64,000 nt of DNA, taken from Craterostigma plantagineum. Its lineage: Eukaryota > Streptophyta > Magnoliopsida > Lamiales > Linderniaceae. Of the stretch, positions 7,859-46,349 are shown in pieces. The notes under the pieces were generated by a model, which had not been told where the DNA came from, searched no databases, and saw only the letters and a program-made list of their open reading frames with translations. Each line of letters opens with the position of its first letter. Within the stretch, counting starts at the first letter, position 1. The stretch is taken from assembly GCA_027422505.1 (NCBI GenBank), contig JAPQWV010000002.1:27754501-27818500 (forward strand), written 5' to 3'. The translations under genes and the position numbers were made by a program.

Positions 7859-10800
7859 GTGGCTATGAACAACTCTACCCAACTTTCCGTTCCAATCTTG
7901 GATGTCAAAAATTACAACAGATGGGCGGTACAGATGAAAGTCTTGTTCGATTACCACGAATTGCTAGAGATCGTGGAGACAGGCTACGCCGATGTCGCAG
8001 AAAATGCAACTGATTCACAAAAGGTTGTTCATCATGAAAACAAGAAAAAGGATAAGAAGGCACTGTTCTTTATTCATCAGGGAGCATCTGATGAAGTTTT
8101 TGAGAAGATCGAAGCGGCAACAACTTCGAAGAAAGCATGGGAAACTCTTATGATGGCTTACAAAGGAGACGAGAAGGTGAAGAAAGTGAGTTGCAGACGC
8201 TGAGGCGGCAATACGAAGTCATGCAGATGGAGTCAACGGAGTCAGTATCAAACTACATAAGCCGACTACTAACCTTGACGAATCAAATGAAGCTATATGG
8301 TGAAAAGCAAGAAGTTCAAACCATTGTTGAAAAGATTCTACGCTCATTGACATACGACTTCTAGCACATAGTGGTGGCGATCGAAGAAGCGCATGACTTG
8401 TCAAAGATGTCTGTTGATAAGTTGACCGGCACCTTGCAAGCACATGAACAACGTATGTCTGAGAAAAAAGTGAAGAAGGTTGTCGAGCAAGCCCTACAAG
8501 CTCAATCTCGTGTTGATGCAAACAAGCGACAGTGCAAGTCCCGTGGTCGAGGACGAGGAAGAGGACGTGACGGCCGATCAGACAGCAACGGTCGTGGCGA
8601 GAGTCAAGGCGATAACCAAGAGAAAGCTCAGAGCGGTCGAATTCTAACTCAAGAGGCCGAGGCCGTGGACGTAGTAGAGGACGGTATGACAAGTCTAATG
8701 TTGAGTGTTTCTCTTGTCATAAGTTTGGGCACTATGCGAGCGAATGCAGATACAAAGACAACGATCAACGGGCAAACTGTACTCAACAAGACGAAGCGAA
8801 TCATACTCTCTTGATGGTTACTTCAGGCAACAATGGGTTATCCGACTATCACACATGGTTTCTTGATACCGGGTGTACAAATCACATGTGCGGCAAAAGG
8901 GAGATATTTGCGGAACTTGATGAATCTTTCTCGACGAGCGTTAAATTCGCTGATGATACGTGCATACCTGTTATGGGTATTGGGCAGATTCTCATCAACT
9001 TGAAGAACGGAGATCAGAAGTACATTTCAGATGTGTTCTATGTACCTGGCTTGAAGACGAACTTGTTGTATCGAGCAATTATCAGAAAAGGGGTATGATA
9101 TGTCTCTTCGTAACGAGGTATTTTCTGTATGCGACCAAAAAGGTTTTGATCCTTTCAGCTCCTATGACGAAAAATCGTATGTTTCAAATTGATATTTCTC
9201 GAGGCGCTTATCGTTGTCTTAGCACAATCATGAAAGATGAATCTTGGTTGTGGCACCTGCGCTTTGGCCACCTAAACTTTCACAGTCTAAAGTTGCTCTC
9301 TCGAGAAAATCTGGTGAAGGGTATGCCATCTATTCAACATCCTGATAAGATATGTGAAGCATGCACTGTTGGAAAGCATCACAGAACAAAGTTTGCAACA
9401 GAGCGAGAAAAGCGTTCTACTCAACCTCTGGAGCTGGTTTACTCGGATGTATGTGGCCCGATGAATGTTCTTTCAAATGGGAATAGTAGGTATTTCTTGA
9501 CATTTATTGATGATTTTTCTCGCAAGACGTGGGTTTACTTTCTCCAAAGGACGTTCGACGTGTTCGATACTTTTCTGAACTTCAAAGCGCACGTCGAACG
9601 ACAGAGCGACAATCTGTTGAAAGAGCTGCGAACTGATGGTGGCCGTGAGTATACGTCTAATGAATTTAACGAGTTTTGTGAAGCACATGGTATTCATCAC
9701 GAGATTACCTTTCCGTAGCCTCAACACAACGGGGTCGCCGAGCGAAGGAACCGGATGATAATGGACATGGCAAGAAGCATGATAAAAATAAAGAATATGC
9801 CTAATTCGTTTTGGGCAGAAGCTGTGTCGTGTGCCGTTATATCCTAAATCGAATGTCCAACGAAAGGTGTTCTAGATCTTACGCCAGCAGAAGCATGGAG
9901 TGGTTTCAAACCAGGCGTTAAACACCTGAGGGTGTTTGGGTCTATTGCGTATGCTCACATTCCAGCAGCTACGAGAATGAAATTGGATGATCGCGCTGAA
10001 AAGGCGGTTCTTATTGGCTAGAAAATGGGAGGTTACAAGCTGTTTAATCCAATTACGAAGAAATTCATCGTCAGCCGTGACGTCACTTTTGCTGAAGACG
10101 AGTCTTGGGAGTGGAGCCAGGATATTCCCTCAGACCAGAATAGGAGCATTATTTTCCTTTCGAAGAGGAAACAGAGACGATGGATATCATTATAGAAGCT
10201 CCTACAAGTTCTAATATGGCGGTCGCACGAAAATCTCAACGAAGCCGACAACAAACCACATACCTTCAAGAGTTCGAGGTAACTTCTGACGATAGAGTAA
10301 ATGATGATGGGGAGCTGGTCCATTTTGCATTTTTTGCAGATTTCAAGCCTGTGACTTTGGAAGAAGCGTTCAAAAATTATAAATGGATCGAGTGGATGCA
10401 TGAAGAACTTGGAGCGATTGAAAGAAGCAACATATGGATGCTCACTGATTTACCACGAGGCTGTAAAGCGATCGTTGAAGTGGATTTTCAAAACAAAGAT
10501 GGCTAATAACGGAACAGTGGAAAGGTATAAAGCGAGGCTAGTCGCCAAAGGGGTTCGAGCAACGAGCCGGTTCTGATAGAAGTGTTTGCACCAGTCGCTC
10601 GCATGGAGACTGTTCGGTTAATGATTGCTATAGCTGCTCAAAATCATTGGAAAATTCATCAGATGGACGTTAAGTCCGCATTTCTTAACGGCCCACTGGA
10701 AGAAAAGGTGTTTGTTAAACAACCTCTTGGCTTCGTGATAAAGGGTTCTAAAGAAAAGGTTTATCGACTCAAGAAGGCGTTGTACGGCTTGAAGCAAGCT

Positions 10801-11605
10801 CCAAGGGCGTGGAACAAATGCATCGACTCGTTCTTTCTTGGAGCTGGTTTTGAAAGATGTCCATCGGAGCACTCATTATATGTGAAGGTTAGCGATACTC
10901 GTGATATTTTGATGGTATGTTTATACGTCGATGATTTGATATTTATGAGTAATTGCGCGAGCATGGTTGAAAGCTTTAAGCGCTCTATCATGGACGAGTT
11001 CGAGATGACCGACCTTGGTCTTATGTCGCACTTTCTCGGCATTGAAGTTGTTCAAAAGGCGAACGGAATTTTCATATCTCAACGAAAATATATTTCTGAT
11101 CTTCTAAAAAGATTTCAGATGGGTGATTGCAATCCAGCGAAAGCTCCAGTCGAAGTTGGTACAAAGCTTACTAAGAATGGGGATGGACCAACTGTTGATC
11201 CGACCTACTTTAAGCAAATCGTTGGGAGTTTGAGATACCTCACCTTTACGAGACCTGATATTTCTTATGACGTTGGTCTAATTAGCAGATTCATGGAGAC
11301 GACGTATCAATCTCATTTACAAATCGCCAAACGTATTCTGCGTTACTTGAAAGAGAGTTTGAAGATATTTGTGGATAATAGTTCAGCAATTAACCTGGCA
11401 AGAATCCAATTGAGCATGGTCGGAGCAAGCATATTGACATCCGATTTCATTTTTTACGCGAGCTAGTAGAACAGAAGATGATCAAGTTGGAATTCTGTCA
11501 AAGTGAAGACCAATTAGCAGATATTCTGACAAAGCCACTGAAGTATGATTCATTTGCGAAGCTGAGAAGCATGCTTGGCGTATCAATCTTACAAAATTTG
11601 GATTA
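7859..11605 (+). pseudogene. Broken copia gag-pol polyprotein
   Basis: Gag starts near 7859 with the MKVLFDYHELLEIVE region. The frame shifts near 8187 and meets a TAG stop at 8362-8364 that replaces a probable CAG codon. It then shifts again near 8635, before a CCHC zinc knuckle (CFSCHKFGHYASEC). The protease motif DTGCTNHM is at about 8868, and a frameshift follows near 9065. Integrase shows the HLRFGHLN zinc-binding start and FIDDFSRKTWVYF, ending at a TAG stop (9716-9718). Reverse transcriptase (10582-11340) keeps the YVDD catalytic motif at about 10924. Most of RNase H is deleted after RYLKES, and only its end (IFVDNSSAINLA, then a SEDQLADILTKPL tail) remains. The element cannot make functional proteins. 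Confidence 0.92.
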
Positions 11606-20384: not shown

Positions 20385-21850
20385 ATTTTTGATAGTGGAG
20401 CGGACGGCAGAGACACTGCCCTTGTAAGCTGAGAGGTGGTAATTTAGTGTTGGCAACGGGGCTGGGCGGGGGCGGGGACCTAATCCCCGTCCCCGTCCCC
20501 GTCCTCGCCAGATCCCCGCGGGGATCGGATTCAAGTTTTTTAAAAAAATTAATATTTTAAATATTATATATAAATTTAATTATATTTTCGTTATAAATAT
20601 TATATAAATTATAGTTTTATATATTATTTGTATTAATTTAATATTATTTAATCTATATTTAATATTATTTTAATTATAATATAATATTATATATATATAT
20701 ATATATTAGAAGGCGGGGCGGGGCGGGGATCCCCGCCGGGAAAATTCTTTCCCCGTCCCCGCCCCGCGGGGATAGAAACTCGGGGATTCCCCGCCCCGTT
20801 CGGGGCGGATCCCCGCGCGGGGACGGGGAATCCCCGCTCCACTACCATCCCTAGGTGGTATGCAGGCCAAAAAAGCACGGGGGGTTGAATATAAAAAATT
20901 GCGGGCTGTGGAATAATGCGTTGATAGGCAAGCAAATTTGGGACATTGCGAGTAAAGCAGATAACCTTTGGATTAGATGGATTGATGGTGTCTATTTGAA
21001 AGGGAGAGACTTTTGGGACAACGTAACCCCCCTTGATTGTAATTGGCATTGGCGAAAAATCAACAAGATCAAGGGACTCTTCGCGGGCGGATACTTAGAG
21101 GGCAGGTGGACGCAATCTGCTGCTGGGACATACACTGTAAGATCTGGATATCAATGGTTGCTTGGAAATGCTAGGTTATGTCCGCAAAGTGCTGTTATAT
21201 GGAACCGCTATAACATACCAAAGCACTCAGTGATTGTGTGGCTTTTGGTGCATAGAAGATTACTGACGAAGGACCGACTGCAGTCTTGGGGGATTCAAGT
21301 CCTGGAATCTCAGTGCAGTCTATGTGCAGCTGAGGATGAATCTATCGAGCACCTATTCTTCACATGCTCGTATAGTAGGGACATTTTACGCCTTATGTCA
21401 ATATGGTTAAAGGGCATGATGATACCTACTGACTTATAGGATGGTGGAAGTGGGCACAAAGGTTGGCTCGACGGTCTAAAGTCTGGTCTAAGATAGTCAC
21501 AGCTTGTTCTGCAGCTGTAATATACTTCTTGTGGAGGGAAAGGAACAGGCGAGTTCATGGGTCTTCTCCATTGAGCTCCGAGGAGACGATGCATTGTATC
21601 CAACGGGAGGTGAAATGCCGGCTGTTTAGTTGTTCAAGATTAATACACTCTAACAGGGATAGAGAATGTGTTAGACAATTTTGTGAGGCTTCCTAGATTT
21701 TGTCTAGGTCTTTGATGGTAGTAGTTTTGGAGAAAGGAGTGATTTTGTCTAGGTCTGTTATTGACGTCGCTGTTGCAGCGTGTTTTTGACCTTGAGAGAA
21801 CCGAGTGTTAAAGCTCGTTAGGCGCTGTCATCCTCAATGTATGTATGTGT
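20385..21850 (+). mobile_element. 5'-truncated L1-type LINE, 3' part of ORF2
   Basis: The segment reads DGRDTALVS, then (after a TGA in place of TGG and an inserted element) EVVCRPKKHGGLNIKN, then a long stretch to about 21436 that ends with the zinc-binding reverse-transcriptase C-terminus (CSLCAAEDESIEHLFFTC). Further LINE-like coding continues in another frame to about 21696 (YFLWRERNRRVHG). This is the tail of an L1-type ORF2 without the catalytic reverse-transcriptase core, so the copy is dead. The region 21700-21850 resembles a LINE 3' UTR, and no poly(A) tail is obvious. Confidence 0.85.
20442..20852. mobile_element. hAT-like non-autonomous element nested in the LINE
   Basis: 411 bp with very GC-rich ends (GGGGCGGGGA-type runs) and an AT-rich core. 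It is bounded by the perfect 8-bp direct repeat AGGTGGTA (20434-20441 and 20853-20860). Left end TAGTGTTGGCAACGGGGC and inverted right end TAGGGATGGTAGTGGAGC resemble the TAGGGNTGGCAA termini of plant hAT elements. Removing the segment and one repeat restores the LINE reading VS(W)EVVCRPKK, which confirms the insertion. It has no transposase. Confidence 0.82.
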
Positions 21851-39239: not shown

Positions 39240-39248
39240 TTTCAAAAA
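39240..39248. repeat. Left 9-bp target-site duplication of the MULE
   Basis: TTTCAAAAA, identical to 46305-46313. A 9-bp duplication is the hallmark of Mutator-superfamily insertion. Confidence 0.92.
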
Positions 39249-39323
39249 GGGAATTACTATTTACCGCCCCCTTTTTACTTGTTACCGCCCCCTAAAGGAC
39301 TGAAAAAAGACTATTTTGCCCCT
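39249..39323 (+). repeat. Left terminal inverted repeat of the MULE
   Basis: It starts GGGAATTACTATTTACCGCC and contains ACCGCCCCCT twice. Its inner part (CCCCCTAAAGGACTGAAAAA and on to TTTGCCC) is identical to the inverse of the right end. The outermost 18 bases differ at about five positions. Confidence 0.93.
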
Positions 39324-39376
39324 ATGTTATTTAAAATAATTTAAAAAGCTAAAATATAATAAATAGTAAGAATTCC

Positions 39377-39385
39377 TATTTAAAG
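39377..39385 (+). promoter_or_regulatory. Probable TATA motif of the PMD gene
   Basis: TATTTAAAG lies 82 bases before the ATG and 128 bases inside the left end. The same nonamer occurs near the right end (46206-46214) in front of the transposase gene, which suggests a shared promoter unit. Confidence 0.55.
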
Positions 39386-39458
39386 TACTGTACTACGCAA
39401 CACTTTTCAAATCACACATCCAAATCAAACACCGAAACAGAGAAATTTGAAAATCGCA

Positions 39459-39902
39459 ATGGAACGAGGAAAAGGAAAGGGAAAGGGAAAGGGGGTGCTC
39501 TCACGATTGGTAAGAAAATTGTCGTAAAATTCATTCGTATTTAATTAGATTGTCGAAAACGAGTCGAAATAGGCCGGAAAACGGTTGAAGGGACGCGAAA
39601 TCGGGCCAAAAACGGCACGACCGAAATCCGATTTCGGTAGCCCAAGTGCCGACCGAAACATGATTTCGGTCGGCCAGGGTAGCGACCGAAATCGGATTTC
39701 GGTCACTGCCCTGGCCGACCGAAATCATGTTTCGGTCGGCACTTGGGCGACCGAATTTATTGCTCGGTCGCCGTAGTACCGACCGAAATCGGGTTTCGGT
39801 CGTAGCCTCGCCGACCGAAATCGGATTTCGGTCGGCCAGTATCCAACCGAAGTCGGATTTCGGTCGGGTAACGGGCTGACCGAAATCCAATTTCGGTCGA
39901 AT

Positions 39903-39934
<32 letters not shown>

Positions 39935-41959
39935 TTATCTAATTGCAGGCGCTTGGTGGGAAGTCCCTGGTTGGAGGGAGCAGCAGATCCCCCCCGTTGG
40001 AGGGATCTGGAGAGCGTCATACGAGGGCGCGCGGCGTTGATGCATCCGTTCGTAGGGAACGGGAGGAGGCGAGGCGGCAGCGAGCGGGTGATTCGCATTC
40101 CGTGTATGCGGAATACGATCCCAATGCGGAGGAGGAGGCGCACGCGGATGAGGAGGTGCCATACGATGCGGCATCGTTTCAGTCATCCGACGATGATGCG
40201 ATACCGGTCTCCTCAGGTACATCCCTTCTTCATTATAAACTGACTTGCGATGTCGTGTCTTAACTATCATACCAACGTTAAATTTATTTATGTGGTATTC
40301 GTAAAAAATAAAATAGGGAGCAAGCGCTCCAGGGTCGTAGATGACGATTCCTGGAGGGTGCAGGTGCCACAGCCAGGTGGTCCGCAAGATGGCGAGGTGA
40401 TCCCTAGTTACTTGGGGCACATCGCGCCCCGCATCTGGATGGGTGAGGAGGAGAGGCCCTTGCTGAAGTGCGAGGGGCGGGCGTTAGTGCTTCGGCAGCT
40501 TAAGCAGTGGTACTGCCAATTCCCGCCGAAGACACAGAGCGAGATCGATGGCACAGGCCTCTTACACCTCGCAGATGCGATGCTCGTACACTTGGACCAA
40601 CCTCTTCTGTGCGCTTTTGTGGAGCGCTGGCACCCCGACACGAACACCTTCCACATGCCGTGGGGGGAGATGACGATCATGCTCCACGATGTCGAGCAGA
40701 TCCTCCGACTCCCGATCGACGGGACGATGGTTTCGGGCACCCCGGACGCTGGCGACCAGCAGATCGCGGCGAGGGAGATTATGGGCGTATCCGCAGACGC
40801 CCTGAGGGGATTTTGGAGAGCAGGGTCGGTTGCGTCGAAAGACGTGATGCAGAGGATGCGGGAGGGTCGGCCGGCGGGATTCCAGGCCATCGCTTGGCTG
40901 TGGATTCTATTGGGGTCGACCCTGTTCGTCGACAAGAGCGGGAATCGGGTGAAGCCCGACATCATGCACGAGTTCTATCGCTCCCTGCCATCTGCCAGCC
41001 ATTACTCGTGGGGTTCGGCTGCTCTTGCTTACCTCTATCGCCAGCTTGGGCTCGCAAGCCGAGCGGATGCTAGGGGTTTAGCTGGGTGCCTGTCGTTACT
41101 ACAGGCGTGGATCTACGAGTACTTCCCATGCTTCCGCCCACACCGTCTACCCAATCAGGTGGAGCCTGGCCATGCACGATCACGCATGTGGTCCGTATCT
41201 CAGGTCGAGCGGACGGGACACCGATTATTTGAGATCCGCCGTCAGCTAGATGCGATGACAGCGAGCGAGGTATAATACCAATTTTTATTCTATATTCACG
41301 ACAATTATATAATAATAACGAACTGTTATCAGGTCGCTTGGTTGCCGTACGGTCCCGATCCAGCGGCGCAGCACCTGAGGACTCTTTTCGTGGGCTGGGT
41401 TAGATATCGCGACATCGTGGAACCCTACGTACCCTCGAGAGTGTTGCGCCAGCTGGGTTACGTGCAGCACATCCCGCCGCCGATGACACCGCCGCAGAAG
41501 GCGTATATGCCAGCAGACCCGTCGAGGTATAAGGTCCACCATTCTGGCGATGCAGCAGAATTTGCTTGGCGGCAGTTCCCGTACGCGTACATCCTGAACC
41601 TGTCGTACATCAGCCGGGCGGCCAAAGAGTACCTTGGTGAGACCGTTGAAGGGTACATGGACTGGTACGAGCGGCATTCTCATCCTCGTCTGTTTTCGTC
41701 GGAGTCAGGATCCTCTTCGGGCGGCATCCCGCCCCGCAGCCATACCGACTATGTCCGTAATTTAATGCAATTTGGATTTTATATATTTGTATGTTTAATC
41801 AAATTTTATATGTATCAATTATGTGTGCAGTGGTACAGCTCGATGTATGCATTGAGCACCGAGATGCTAGCTACGCTGCAGCTCCACGACCAGGAGCAGA
41901 CAGAGCGCTACAGAGACAGGCTCGACTACATGAACGACCGCTGGCGCAATGCCCCGTAA
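39459..41959 (+). CDS. Plant mobile domain (PMD, MAIN-like) protein carried by the MULE
   Basis: Five exons (39459-39509, 39949-40216, 40317-41269, 41333-41752, 41831-41959) join in frame to 606 residues. Exon 1 encodes only a basic 17-residue start (MERGKGKGKGKGVLSRL). An acidic low-complexity stretch follows. The PMD fold begins about residue 175: LCAFVERWHPDTNTFHMPWG, then GEMTIMLHDVEQILRLPIDG, LWILLGSTLFVDKSG, SHYSWGSAALAYLYRQLG and LAGCLSLLQAWIYEYFP. Its C-terminal part (FVGWVRYRDIVEPYVPSRVL) matches the tail of transposon-borne PMD proteins. Host MAIN/MAIL1 relatives act in the nucleus in transposon silencing and genome stability. The role of transposon-borne PMD proteins is unknown. 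Intron 4 has no stop, so a read-through form is possible. GC content is far above that of the flanks. Confidence 0.9.
39619..39899. repeat. Palindrome array in the first intron of the PMD gene
   Basis: Nine copies of a roughly 21-bp palindrome, consensus GACCGAAATCSGATTTCGGTC, are spaced about 10-16 bp apart. The spacers also pair with each other: CCCAAGTGCC/GGCACTTGGG and GGCCAGGG/CCCTGGCC flank a central copy, making one nested inverted repeat of about 130 bp. The array ends in a long poly(T) and poly(A) tract before the exon-2 acceptor. Confidence 0.92.
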
Positions 41960-41999
41960 TGTGCTCGTGGTTTATTTGTCATTCTTTTGTGTATCGGAC

Positions 42000-42935
42000 T
42001 CGTAATATTAATATTTATATAATAATATACAAAATAATAATATTTGTCCTTCTTTTGGTTTATTAAATAATATTATTAACAATAATAATATACAAAATAA
42101 TAATATAAAAAATAATATTATTAAATAATAATATTGTTAACAATAATATTATTATTAACAATAATAAGATAAAAACTAATTTTATTAACAACAATAATAA
42201 TATACAAAATAATAAGATAAAAAATAATATTATTATTTAATATTATTAACAATAATAATATTAATAATATTAATAATAATATACAAAATAATAATATAAA
42301 AAATAATATTATTAAATAATATTATTAACAATAATAATATACAAAATAATAATATAAAAAATAATATTATTATTTAATATTATTAACAATAATAATATTA
42401 GTAATATTAATAATAATATACAAAATAATAATATAAAAAATAATATTATTAAATAATATTATTAACAATAATAATATACAAAATAATAATATAAAAATAA
42501 TATTATTATTTAATATTATTAACAATAATAATATTAATAATATTAATAATAATATACAAAATAATAATATAAAAAATAATATTATTAAATAATATTATTA
42601 ACAATAATAATATACAAAATAATAATATAAAAAATAATATTATTAAATAATAATATTATTAACAATAATATTATTATTAACAATAATAAGATAAAAACTA
42701 ATTTTATTAACAACAATAATAATATACAAAATAATAAGATAAAAAATAATATTATTATTTAATATTATTAACAATAATAATATTAATAATATTAATAATA
42801 ATATACAAAAAATAATATAAAAAATAATATTATTAAACAATATTATTAACAATAATAATATACAAAATAATAATATAAAAAATAATATTATTAAATAATA
42901 ATATTAACAATAATAATAATATACAAAATAATACA
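42000..42935. repeat. AT-rich higher-order repeat between the two MULE genes
   Basis: The region consists almost only of A and T with scattered C and G. It is built from AATAATATTATTAA-type words and the phrase AATATACAAAATAATA, which recurs about every 60 bases. A longer block containing AATAAGATAAAAACTAATTT appears twice, near 42165 and 42685. It may act as the shared 3' end and terminator zone of the convergent genes. Confidence 0.85.
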
Positions 42936-42942
42936 AACGGAA

Positions 42943-45900
42943 TTACTTCATACTATATTTATGCATGAGTTGCAACCAATGTTCGAATCTGCTCTGATAT
43001 CTAAGTTCCCACCCATCAAGTCGACGATCACGATACGTATGCCAATACGGATGCAACACGGGCATAGGAAAGTCTCCACGTAAATTCAGTCGAATATAAT
43101 GCTGGTACTCGTCTCCAAGGTGCGCTATGACGATCCATCGGTTTGGTCCGTTGGCAGTCCGGGGGGCACGCAGTGGAAGTATCGTGAAAGAATGCATGTT
43201 GATGGTCGATCCGTTGCCGTACCCGTAGAGGGTAACTACAGCGTTCCAAATTGTCGCCACAGCCCACAGATCGCACGGTGTCAACATCCAGTGGTTTGCC
43301 AAGCAAGCCCCCCCTTCCCAGCGTATACGATCCAGCTGCATTTCCAATGAATCACCGTAATACAATGGCGCGTAAAGATTCCAATGGGCCTCGATTTCGT
43401 TCGCGACGTTATGCCTTAAGGTGATCCATTCTTCCTCGTCATTGTAAATATGGGAAGCGACAGCACGAAATCCGCAGTTGCCGTCCGCCACCACATCCTT
43501 ATAACTAACTATATACGGATGGATGACTGATGTTACGTGGTGCTGCAAGCGGCTGTGGAAGAAGTTGGATTCACCTGTACAAAGTAATTTACAAGACTAC
43601 ATGATTTATCCAAGTTCGCATGAATACAGGGGTGAACGTTAAAAGTACCTGTATCCGTAGTAGAAGTACGAGAGCGCTTCGCAGACAAAGATGACGTACG
43701 GCCATGACTGGAACGACCCTGGCTGCTACGGCTTGTACTGCTGCGCCCTCCGCTGCGTCCCCCCCTTGGGAGTGCGTACTCCCAAGCACTTCGATCACGT
43801 TTCGTCGAGTCTCTTTTCTTTGGTCGACCTTTTACAGATGTCTTAACAACTGGCTCATTCCACTCTTGCGCCTCGGGATAGAGATGTTCGTGAACAACTC
43901 GATGGAGGCTACGCATAACGGCGGGATCGCGTGTTTCTGCCTCGCGCACGAGGTCGTAAAAGCGCTCCTGCTCAGAAATATCTGGAACTACTCCCTCGCC
44001 GATTGTGAGTGTCCTCCAGAAGTCGTGCAAGCATTCTAACGAAACTGGATAGTTGTTGTCCACGCATTGCTGGAGCTCGCAAGCACACGGTAGTTGGTGC
44101 GTACGTCGTACTACACATCCGCACCTGGAGTAAACTTCATTCGACAACTCTTTAGCCCGCCGCAGCTCATGTCCCATAATTAATAATGCATGGTGTGAAA
44201 CTCTGTATAACAATGTTAGGAATGGAAATCCAGAGTTCGGAATAGGTCGTTTCGACCGGGACTCCTCAAGTGTCTGCATGTCAACAGTAACAAAATTATT
44301 AGATAAGGAACACTGACACGTAATTATAATATTATTTACCTTTCTTATGCGAATTAACTGGTTTTGAATCTGCTCGTGCACCTTCACCCAGACGGTGTCA
44401 AGTGATCCAGTGGCGGAGTTCAGCCATCCTTTCAGCTCGCTATGAGCACTCTCCACACGACACGTAGTGGTGTTCCCGAAATGAAGCACCTGGTTCGTCC
44501 AAGCTCTGGCGAACTTCTCCTTATGCACCAACCACGTCTGCTCAACATAACTAACGATTTCTGAGCCGGGTAGCCAACGAAGACGCATGTCGTTCACTGC
44601 GTTCTCGTATTCGTCAACCGTCGGAGCTTCCACGACTGCTTTCCAGGACTTGTGCGTGAAGTGAGCTGCGGTCTTTTTGCTCCTCCCCCCCAACCAATAA
44701 ATTTTGTTCTCCACATCTTTATAAATATGCCACGTGCACAGCAGATGGTGAGAATGTGGAAATACCATATGTACCGGTCGAAGAAGGCCCAACTCACGAT
44801 CAGTGACAATCGCGGACGGGTGGACACCTGGCCCTAGAATATCCCTGACTGACTGCAACATCCACCCGTAACTTCGCTCGGTCTCGTCCTCCATGACGGC
44901 AAACCCACACAGAAAGTTGTGATTACAGGGAGTCATCCCTATAATCTCAACTAGAGGCATCTTATATCTATTTGTCTTGTACGTCGAGTCAATCCCAATA
45001 AAATAAGGGTACGTCCTCAGCAGTGCGAGTGACTCCGGGTGCGCGAGAAAGACATGTGTCAGCACATTACTCTCCTCATCTCTCAGCGCTTCAACAAAAT
45101 ATCCGGACTCTGTCGCCTGGTGCATCAACTGGCTCACGACGTCTCGACCCTCAGAACATTGCTTCTTCAAACGATCTCTGTAATTATATACATGTCGGAT
45201 CGTCGCGTTATCCTCAGCGTGTCGAGCCCTCATCGCTGAGAGGATATGTGCTGGTTTCGCTTGGGCAGCAGTCATTTCCTCTACGACCTTCTTTGCCTGG
45301 CTGCTCAACCCACTCGTCTGGCGGTGACCCTCTGGATACTGTATCAGAGGGTGATTGTGTATGAAATTCTCCGGTGCACCCGTACGAATGTACCATTCCC
45401 TAGTAGCTGGATCTTGCTGGGCTATGACTACAAACGGACACCTGCACTTGTTAGACTTGGACATCCTCTCCAATTCATCCTCCTTGCCTCTATAACGTTC
45501 TCCGCGAGAACATCTAATCAATTTTTTTGTTCCACATTTCTTGTGCGACGAAATTATCACCTCGAAACCAAGACCAATAGCGACGCCTTTCGCCCAGTTA
45601 ATGGCTTCCACGTCGGTCGAAAATCGTCCTCCTTCTCGGAAATGCTCACTGTAGTTTATCCCGTCACCCGTGGAATCCTCCGGGACAATCTCCGAGTCTG
45701 GAAAAAAATAAAAAATAAAAAAAAATTAAAAAAAAAATTGTGACCGAAATCGGAATTCGGTCACCCTAAGAGGCGACCGAAACAAGATTTCGGCAGCCTC
45801 TTAGGGTGACCGAAATCCGATTTCGGTTGTCGCATGCCCGACCGAACAATTATTTCGGTCGGACTAAGTGGCGACCGAAAAACAATTTCGGTCACCACTT

Positions 45901-46130
45901 GGTCCGACCGAACAATTATTTCGGTCGGACCAAGTGGTGACCGAAATTGTTTTTCGGTCGCCACTTAGTCCGACCGAAATAATTGTTCGGTCGGGCCGAA
46001 TTTTCCGATACAATCCAATGTAAGTTCGAGAATTCACGTCTATACGAATTGAATTTACGAGAATTTGCTTACCATTGGTGCCAGTAGACTGTTTCTTTTG
46101 ACCTTTCAATTTCGAAAATAGACGATTCAT
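42943..46130 (-). CDS. FAR1-type MULE transposase with C-terminal OTU protease domain
   Basis: Four exons on the minus strand, 46073-46130, 44340-45697, 43649-44273 and 42943-43574, join in frame to 890 residues. Exon 1 gives a basic start (MNRLFSKLKGQKK). A FAR1/WRKY-GCM1-type zinc finger follows at about residues 60-140 (GFEVIISSHKKCG, KCRCPFVV, FIHNHPL). The MULE DDE core shows FIGIDSTYKTNRYK (first D), SAIVTDRELGLL (second D) and CRVESAHSELKGWL (E). A SWIM-like cluster (CGCVVRRTHQLPCAC) has C where H is usual. An RS/RG-rich linker leads through a spliced junction (TDTGESNFFHS) into an OTU domain with VADGNCGFRAVA (catalytic D and C) and EYQHYIRL (catalytic H candidate). OTU proteases cleave ubiquitin chains. 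Read unspliced, the transposase and OTU frames are separate; splicing fuses them. Confidence 0.9.
45742..45992. repeat. Palindrome array in the first intron of the transposase gene
   Basis: Eight copies of the palindrome family GACCGAAA...TTTCGGTC alternate with 9-12-bp spacers. CACCACTTGGTCCG pairs with CGGACCAAGTGGTG and GGACTAAGTGGC with GCCACTTAGTCC, so four copies fold into one nested inverted repeat of about 130 bp (45846-45980). The core differs from the left array (AACAATTATTTC against AAATCGGATTTC), but the ends GACCGAA/TTCGGTC are the same. Confidence 0.92.
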
Positions 46131-46205
46131 TGAAATGTTTTAATTATTTGTTATGTTTGAATCTGATTTGGATGTCTGATTGCGATATCAGATGAGTGAA
46201 AATGA

Positions 46206-46214
46206 CTTTAAATA
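46206..46214 (-). promoter_or_regulatory. Probable TATA motif of the transposase-OTU gene
   Basis: TATTTAAAG on the minus strand lies 84 bases before the ATG at 46130, nearly the same distance as the matching motif in front of the PMD gene. Confidence 0.55.
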
Positions 46215-46229
46215 GAAATTTAAATTAGA

Positions 46230-46304
46230 AAGGGCAAAATAGTCTTTTTTCAGTCCTTTAGGGGGCGGTGACTAGGAAAAAGGGGGCGGTGAATAGCAAT
46301 CCAG
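46230..46304 (-). repeat. Right terminal inverted repeat of the MULE
   Basis: Read inward it starts CTGGATTGCTATTCACCGCC. It contains ACCGCCCCCT twice and then matches the left repeat without a mismatch through AAAGGACTGAAAAAAGAC. It abuts the target duplication TTTCAAAAA (46305-46313). Confidence 0.93.
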
Positions 46305-46313
46305 TTTCAAAAA
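46305..46313. repeat. Right 9-bp target-site duplication of the MULE
   Basis: TTTCAAAAA, identical to 39240-39248. A sixth A follows at 46314. Confidence 0.92.
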
Positions 46314-46318
46314 ACCGC

Positions 46319-46328
46319 TATTTATAGC
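46319..46328 (+). promoter_or_regulatory. Probable TATA box of the bZIP gene
   Basis: CTATTTATAG lies only five bases beyond the MULE target duplication. A leader-like sequence starts about 30 bases downstream and reaches a GT donor at 46511. Confidence 0.55.
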
Positions 46329-46349
46329 CACTCCACTTGAGGAGCAAAA

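Follow-up and report, generated by a model that had tools for sequence, protein, structure and literature searches.

A complete two-gene Mutator-like element in Craterostigma plantagineum

The DNA analysed here is a 64,000-nucleotide stretch of the Craterostigma plantagineum genome (contig JAPQWV010000002.1, positions 27,754,501 to 27,818,500; hereafter the window, whose own numbering we use). Positions 39249-46304 hold a complete two-gene Mutator-like element (MULE) of 7,056 bp, with 73-bp terminal inverted repeats (TIRs) and a perfect 9-bp target-site duplication, TTTCAAAAA, at 39240-39248 and 46305-46313. A prior reading made without database searches (the sequence-only reading) had proposed the perfect duplication, inverted ends of about 75 bp, and two convergent spliced genes free of stops, one for a transposase and one for a plant mobile domain (PMD) protein, and all of these proposals held. 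To them the present analysis adds a C-terminal OTU domain on the transposase, homology of the ends past the TIRs, and palindrome arrays in the first intron of each gene. Counted from 39246, the inverted-repeat ends span 76 nt and are 89% complementary, and the combination of TIRs with duplications of about 9 bp is that of a MULE. The PMD gene (+ strand, five exons) encodes 606 amino acids and the transposase gene (- strand, four exons) encodes 890; introns in both are GT-AG and neither frame contains stops. The transposase matches the MULE domain PF10551 (E 5e-25) and its neighbour matches Pfam PF10536 (E 2.6e-62), placing a PMD domain inside a MULE. The two are separate genes on opposite strands, unlike the fusion described for PMD-C MULEs.

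MuDR of maize has long TIRs and a convergent pair of genes, each of which begins within its own end of the element. Our gene models, together with homology between the ends, give the present element the same layout. Local alignment of 39322-39617 with 45997-46231 scored 63, against 21.2 +/- 2.9 for 200 shuffles; homology of the ends therefore continues past the TIR through exon 1 and into intron 1, and both genes appear to start from a once-shared long end. Unlike MuDR, the element carries a PF10536 PMD gene rather than mudrB, arrays in its first introns, and an OTU domain on its transposase.

A search of the genome for other copies and empty sites recovered both. The left flank recurs at four other places with 84-91% identity over 150 nt, and all four are unoccupied, running directly into the right flank through a single TTTCAAAAA with 94.8-96.0% identity across 609 nt of joined flank (gaps ignored). 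Both the insertion and the duplication that it made can thus be seen directly. The contrary case envisaged by the sequence-only reading was an uninserted allele with two separate copies of TTTCAAAAA, and the opposite was seen at every one of the four. Among 200,000 random pairs of 9-mers drawn from the window, 5 were identical, and the empty sites rule out a chance duplication. With the window, the left flank exists at five places in all (the others being L060, L061, L062 and L063), which suggests polyploidy, old duplications or separate haplotype contigs. Just beyond the element (46314-46330), TATTTATAG at 46319, 5 nt past its end, is a possible TATA box of a following + strand gene; MULEs favour gene 5' ends.

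The transposase ends in a domain predicted to adopt an OTU fold with presumed catalytic Asp, Cys and His residues. An AlphaFold2 model of exon 4, built with 19 relatives, had a predicted local distance difference test score (pLDDT) of 89, and its top PDB matches were OTU deubiquitinases, OTUD5/DUBA first (E 2.7e-7). The motif DGNCGFR was exact in seven of 13 transposase relatives, changed at one position in four and fell in a lacking region in two. The residues that we take, by motif, to be the DDE triad of the transposase are D256, D319 and E435. In the genomic copies described below, both this triad and the presumed OTU residues are retained in 12 of the 12 that have all four transposase exons. 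OTU-bearing transposases are also found among eudicot MULE proteins named FAR1-RELATED or 'PKS-NRPS hybrid synthetase cheA-like'; one of these, P0121, aligns with 97% of the query at 43% identity.

The element amplified recently and its PMD gene is under purifying selection

Searching 1.71 Gb of genome with the left 161 nt of the element gave 2759 candidates, and the 40 places that were scored all had 96-100% identity. Twenty of these 40 were fetched as copies. In eighteen, which range in length from 1,032 to 7,137 bp, both TIRs are present and the target duplications match perfectly over 7-11 bp when shifts of up to 3 nt are allowed; for the remaining two, the sequence fetched stops short of the right end. 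So many near-identical copies with ends and duplications rule out a single degenerate copy. Four close copies compared with the window (L009, L011, L014 and L023) carry 0-3 synonymous changes per gene, a synonymous divergence (dS) of 0-0.005, and the amplification is therefore recent. With PMD exon 3 as the query, 125 places were scored out of 4891 candidates, none below 88% identity, and 97 of these 125, which are the best-scored places rather than a random sample, lack a stop.

Intact frames are less common. The PMD frame is intact in 8 of the 16 copies with all five PMD exons and the transposase frame in 2 of the 12 with all four exons; the window copy is intact in both, and none of the 20 fetched copies is, although some single-base frame shifts in these copies may be assembly errors. 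The proposal that the element is recently and possibly still active was borne out for recent activity, by the left TIRs, the two-ended copies, the low dS and the empty sites; current activity, on these counts of intact frames, is no more than a possibility.

The ratio of non-synonymous to synonymous differences per site (pN/pS) for PMD was 0.24, 0.27, 0.26 and 0.20 against four divergent copies (p <= 5e-6 each), and 0.33, 0.29 and 0.23 for the first 690 transposase residues against three, so that constraint on PMD about equals that on the transposase. With L021, whose PMD frame is intact, as reference, PMD pN/pS came to 0.41 for L028 (p 0.004) and to 0.58 for L024 (p 0.055). Pairs referenced to L020 or L024 gave 0.44-1.07 and were set aside, as broken frames caused their codons to be misread. 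PMD is under purifying selection, and this, with its full frame, rules out a Pack-MULE carrying a gene fragment. For the OTU domain, pN/pS against the window copy was 0.52-0.87, indicating that constraint on it is weak in the family.

Several copies are reduced. In L015 and L017 the PMD frame is intact although exons 2 and 3 of the transposase gene are gone. Two short derivatives with TIRs and duplications hold no full gene: L010 (1,032 bp) has exon 1 alone of each gene and one array, and L022 (2,277 bp) lacks PMD exons 2-5 and transposase exons 3-4, has a diverged part of transposase exon 2 and retains two arrays. Elsewhere, three left element ends lie in the same orientation within 3.3 kb (C19:16075758-16079017) and are nested or rearranged insertions.

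Regular palindrome arrays occupy both first introns

Directly behind the homologous end segments, the first intron of each gene holds an array of the palindrome GACCGAA-N7-TTCGGTC (Table 1). ACCGAA and TCGG are invariant in 17 of 17 window units, with variable bases at the centre and variable spacers of 11-12 nt: identity among units is 95% in the arms, 48% in the cores and 56% in the spacers (43% for shuffled spacers). Each unit carries two or three CpGs.

The arrays recur throughout the copies examined. They are present in all 20 fetched copies as well as the window, as two clusters in every case other than L010. Allowing up to three arm mismatches, we detected 319 units across these 21 elements. 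Of these, 227 are perfect, and the interval between units measures 32 or 33 bp in 258 of 278 cases. Twelve units escaped this rule; 11 are still half-site pairs, mostly with an altered core length, and one is largely deleted. An intron-1 array was also found in 10 of 10 further loci picked by PMD exon 3 at 89-91% identity, where the array part alone was fetched and three loci (L055-L057) are nearly identical to one another; these ten gave 84 units with an arm identity of 94% and 68 of 74 intervals at 32-33 bp. Locus L064, whose exon 3 is 83% identical (263/317), has the same palindrome, mostly 32 bp apart, with other spacers. Its array is followed, still in the intron, by a 13-bp tandem repeat (L064:281-540). 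Genome-wide, the exact palindrome pattern occurs 12,633 times and a reversed control pattern 0 times.

Divergence is unevenly spread over the units. In seven divergent copies compared with the window, 4.6% of arm positions had changed (63/1370), against 17% of core (114/666) and 24% of spacer positions (225/924; Fisher p 1.5e-43, with sites and copies not independent). The half-sites are thus the conserved part, and the unit resembles the expected binding site of a dimeric protein. The arrays themselves grow and contract within the family; the left array of L021, for instance, has 15 detected units with repeated spacer groups.

The PMD protein is predicted to share a fold with an anti-silencing protein

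A precedent for such arrays comes from VANDAL21 of Arabidopsis. Its VANC21 protein binds a short motif in tandem repeats of the element's non-coding parts and causes loss of methylation (PMC5735166), and RNA-directed DNA methylation acts on the same regions (PMC10398659). Like the present element, VANDAL21 is a MULE that encodes a transposase and a separate protein and has motif repeats in its non-coding DNA, and the palindrome arrays resemble VANC target arrays in layout. Structure prediction adds a further likeness: a modelled PMD relative matches the DNA-binding fold of VANC21, and PMD is on this basis predicted to share a fold with a MULE-encoded, DNA-bound anti-silencing protein. The systems differ in that our second protein is a PMD by sequence and not a VANC, the TIRs are not degenerate, the motif is a palindromic 21 bp on a fixed 32-33 bp period rather than the 9-base YAGTATTAY, and it is unchanged in the subfamilies examined. 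One PMD relative, P0004 of Mercurialis annua, contains two Agenet domain stretches (E 5.3e-22). Agenet is a chromatin-reader type of domain, and its occurrence in P0004 is in line with a chromatin role for PMD proteins.

A candidate mechanism and its alternatives

These observations suggest the following model. This recently amplified MuDR-like MULE carries two inward-reading genes, each started from its own element end, one giving a MULE transposase with a C-terminal OTU domain and the other a PMD protein. The PMD protein would bind the GACCGAA-N7-TTCGGTC palindromes, probably as a dimer; a spacing of 32-33 bp is about three helical turns and would set the palindromes on one face of the DNA. 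As these sites lie in the two first introns, a short way downstream of where each gene starts, bound PMD would take away silencing marks or prevent their placement there, keeping the two promoters open in cis and, in trans, those of other copies. We infer binding by PMD, its dimeric form and anti-silencing from the simplest joint reading of the predicted VANC21 fold and the conserved motif arrays near gene starts, and give about even chances that PMD resembles VANC in being a sequence-specific DNA-binding factor, with the arrays as its sites and the countering of silencing as its effect. The sequence-only reading had likewise suggested a built-in means of handling host repression. The predicted fold match and the array layout strengthen that suggestion, and support it better than its own argument from host PMD proteins (MAIN and MAIL1), which promote silencing.

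Besides that activity of the host proteins, a number of points weigh against this model. The fold model was built for a Mercurialis PMD relative and not for the window protein, its TM-scores against VANC21 are moderate (0.31 and 0.48), and the comparison covers the folds listed by VIA-align without excluding others. A profile of 42 PMD relatives searched against PDB sequences did not recover VANC21 up to E 10. The window protein has no DUF1985 match at E <= 1, PMD being its sole match, and so falls outside the VANC/DUF1985 family by sequence; weak DUF1985 matches occur in 6 of the 42 relatives. A common fold does not, in any case, establish a common function. Concerning the arrays, our detection rule favours conserved arms, and half-site uniformity could stem in part from array amplification. 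The same half-site is found in every array examined, with no co-divergence of protein and motif, whereas VANC targets diverge between families. Non-synonymous changes predominate in the four close copies (2-6 against 0-1 synonymous in PMD, 2-7 against 2-3 in the transposase), as in copies free to decay after insertion. Finally, the transposase is linked to the arrays as tightly as PMD is, and what ties them to PMD over the transposase is solely the fold match and precedent.

Alternatively, the element's own transposase could read the arrays, its N-terminal region binding them for end assembly or autoregulation while PMD does something else. Subterminal motif arrays are found in CACTA and Ac elements and serve other DNA transposons. 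Consistent with such a role, the left arrays start 367-396 bp from the left end and the right arrays stop 298-318 bp from the right end wherever that end was seen; arrays persist in the internal-deletion copies that lack a full gene (one in L010, two in L022); and the presumed DDE residues are kept wherever all four transposase exons are. The TIRs, however, already hold a conserved candidate site with repeated ACCGCCCCC, the arrays are intronic rather than at the element tips, and it is PMD whose predicted fold matches that of a protein in complex with its target DNA. We consider transposase binding unlikely, though well within reason. The arrays might instead act as RNA, with intron hairpins diced to small RNAs that limit or modulate the element through self-silencing or as decoys for host pathways. 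Both first introns are predicted to fold into very long hairpins far better than their shuffles do (z -29 for the transposase and -22 for PMD), and all 18 arrays taken from nine copies give a better fold than the average of 20 shuffles, which palindromes are bound to do. Inside each window array the mirrored spacers pair, even though the spacers on the left are not those on the right; pairs of mirrored spacers with other sequences are visible by eye in L050, L051 and L055-L057, and the right array contains a perfect 77-nt inverted repeat. Against this, the half-site sequence is fixed beyond what pairing alone needs, and no Rfam family matches; at gathering score, no known RNA family was found in the element. 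A role as RNA seems improbable to us.

More doubtful still is that PMD is a captured host gene that competes with host MAIN/MAIL1/PP7L complexes and does not bind the element, the arrays being unrelated. Many PMD relatives do bear the name MAIN-LIKE, but this explanation leaves without a role the arrays found in all ten loci chosen by PMD similarity, and global interference would lack specificity for the element. The VANC-like model has a broader form, which we put forward tentatively and would not yet bet on: that the fold of the PMD domain is of the VANC type and binds DNA in a sequence-specific way, that transposon-borne PMDs are anti-silencers reading built-in palindrome arrays, and that MAIN and MAIL1, sharing descent with them, bind DNA directly.

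Relation to known PMD proteins and significance

Anti-silencing by a MULE-borne PMD is already in print. Ikeda et al. 2017 report that MULEs of grasses and Amborella captured PMD-C twice, in the form of fusion proteins, and propose an anti-silencing use for it (PMC5418596). Those elements share with ours a MULE-carried PMD domain; in the present eudicot host, by contrast, PMD has a convergent gene of its own and is accompanied by palindrome arrays. PMD-C of eudicots is described as mainly genic (Nicolau et al. 2020, PMC7156037). The present analysis adds the predicted fold, the arrays and the architecture. PMC8616336 describes the PMD domain as of unknown function, and PMC9899485 states that it is unknown whether MAIN/MAIL1/PP7L contacts chromatin. 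A promoter motif called 'DOWN', for which no reader is known, has been connected with host PMD proteins; the form of it given for MORC1, CATGCAGTTT, is unlike the palindrome. In the portions of the literature examined, which exclude the paper behind 9lnj, we found neither a PMD-VANC fold link nor such palindrome arrays, and the link may be printed elsewhere. As for the OTU domain, Ginger1 transposons also have an OTU or Ulp1 protease at the transposase C-terminus; their transposase is Gypsy-integrase-like and the families listed are from animals (PMC2836005).

The element is real and recent, and the mechanism is likely enough to merit a test. Given a predicted fold match and a candidate target array whose exact pattern occurs thousands of times, the role of a widespread PMD family is open to a simple binding test. 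If the model is right, DNA-binding proteins paired with motif arrays would be a wider anti-silencing strategy of MULEs and not a peculiarity of Arabidopsis, and a host silencing pathway would be related by descent to a transposon's own anti-silencer.

Table 1. Features of the element, in window coordinates.
Feature	Position	Strand	Basis or remark
Left target-site duplication TTTCAAAAA	39240..39248	none	Empty sites hold a single copy
Left TIR	39249..39321	+	Two ACCGCCCCC copies, at 39263 and 39284
PMD-end homologous segment (leader, start codon, exon 1, splice donor, start of intron 1)	39371..39540	+	Local alignment
PMD exon 1	39459..39509	+	Gene model; copies
PMD intron 1	39510..39948	+	Predicted RNA fold -251.7 kcal/mol, z -22
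Left array, nine palindromes GACCGAA-N7-TTCGGTC, some with changed bases	39619..39898	none	Spacing 32-33 bp
PMD exon 2	39949..40216	+	Gene model
PMD exon 3, bulk of PMD domain	40317..41269	+	Gene model
PMD exon 4	41333..41752	+	Gene model
PMD exon 5, with stop	41831..41959	+	Gene model
AT-rich repetitive stretch between the two gene ends, about 5% GC	42003..42930	none	Sequence
Transposase exon 4, putative OTU-like cysteine protease domain	42943..43574	-	Pfam E 0.0072 (below cut-off); fold match
Transposase exon 3	43649..44273	-	Gene model
Transposase exon 2, MULE domain	44340..45697	-	Gene model; Pfam
Transposase intron 1	45698..46072	-	Predicted RNA fold -242.8 kcal/mol, z -29
Right array, eight palindromes like those of the left array	45742..45992	none	Spacing 32-33 bp
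Perfect inverted repeat within right array	45836..45996	none	Arms 77 nt, 7 nt between
Transposase-end homologous segment	46042..46220	-	Local alignment
Transposase exon 1	46073..46130	-	Gene model; copies
Right TIR	46232..46304	-	Two ACCGCCCCC copies on - strand, at 46261 and 46282
Right target-site duplication TTTCAAAAA	46305..46313	none	Sequence identity with left copy

Elsewhere in the window, an ANKRD13 gene at 932-2524 is closest to those of Paulownia, Handroanthus, Andrographis and Striga (76-77%), which fits a Lamiales eudicot host. A Copia-type retrotransposon has left pieces (Pol_BBD, RVT_2) at 8619-11466, and a zf-RVT piece at 20858-21439 is probably from a LINE-type element.

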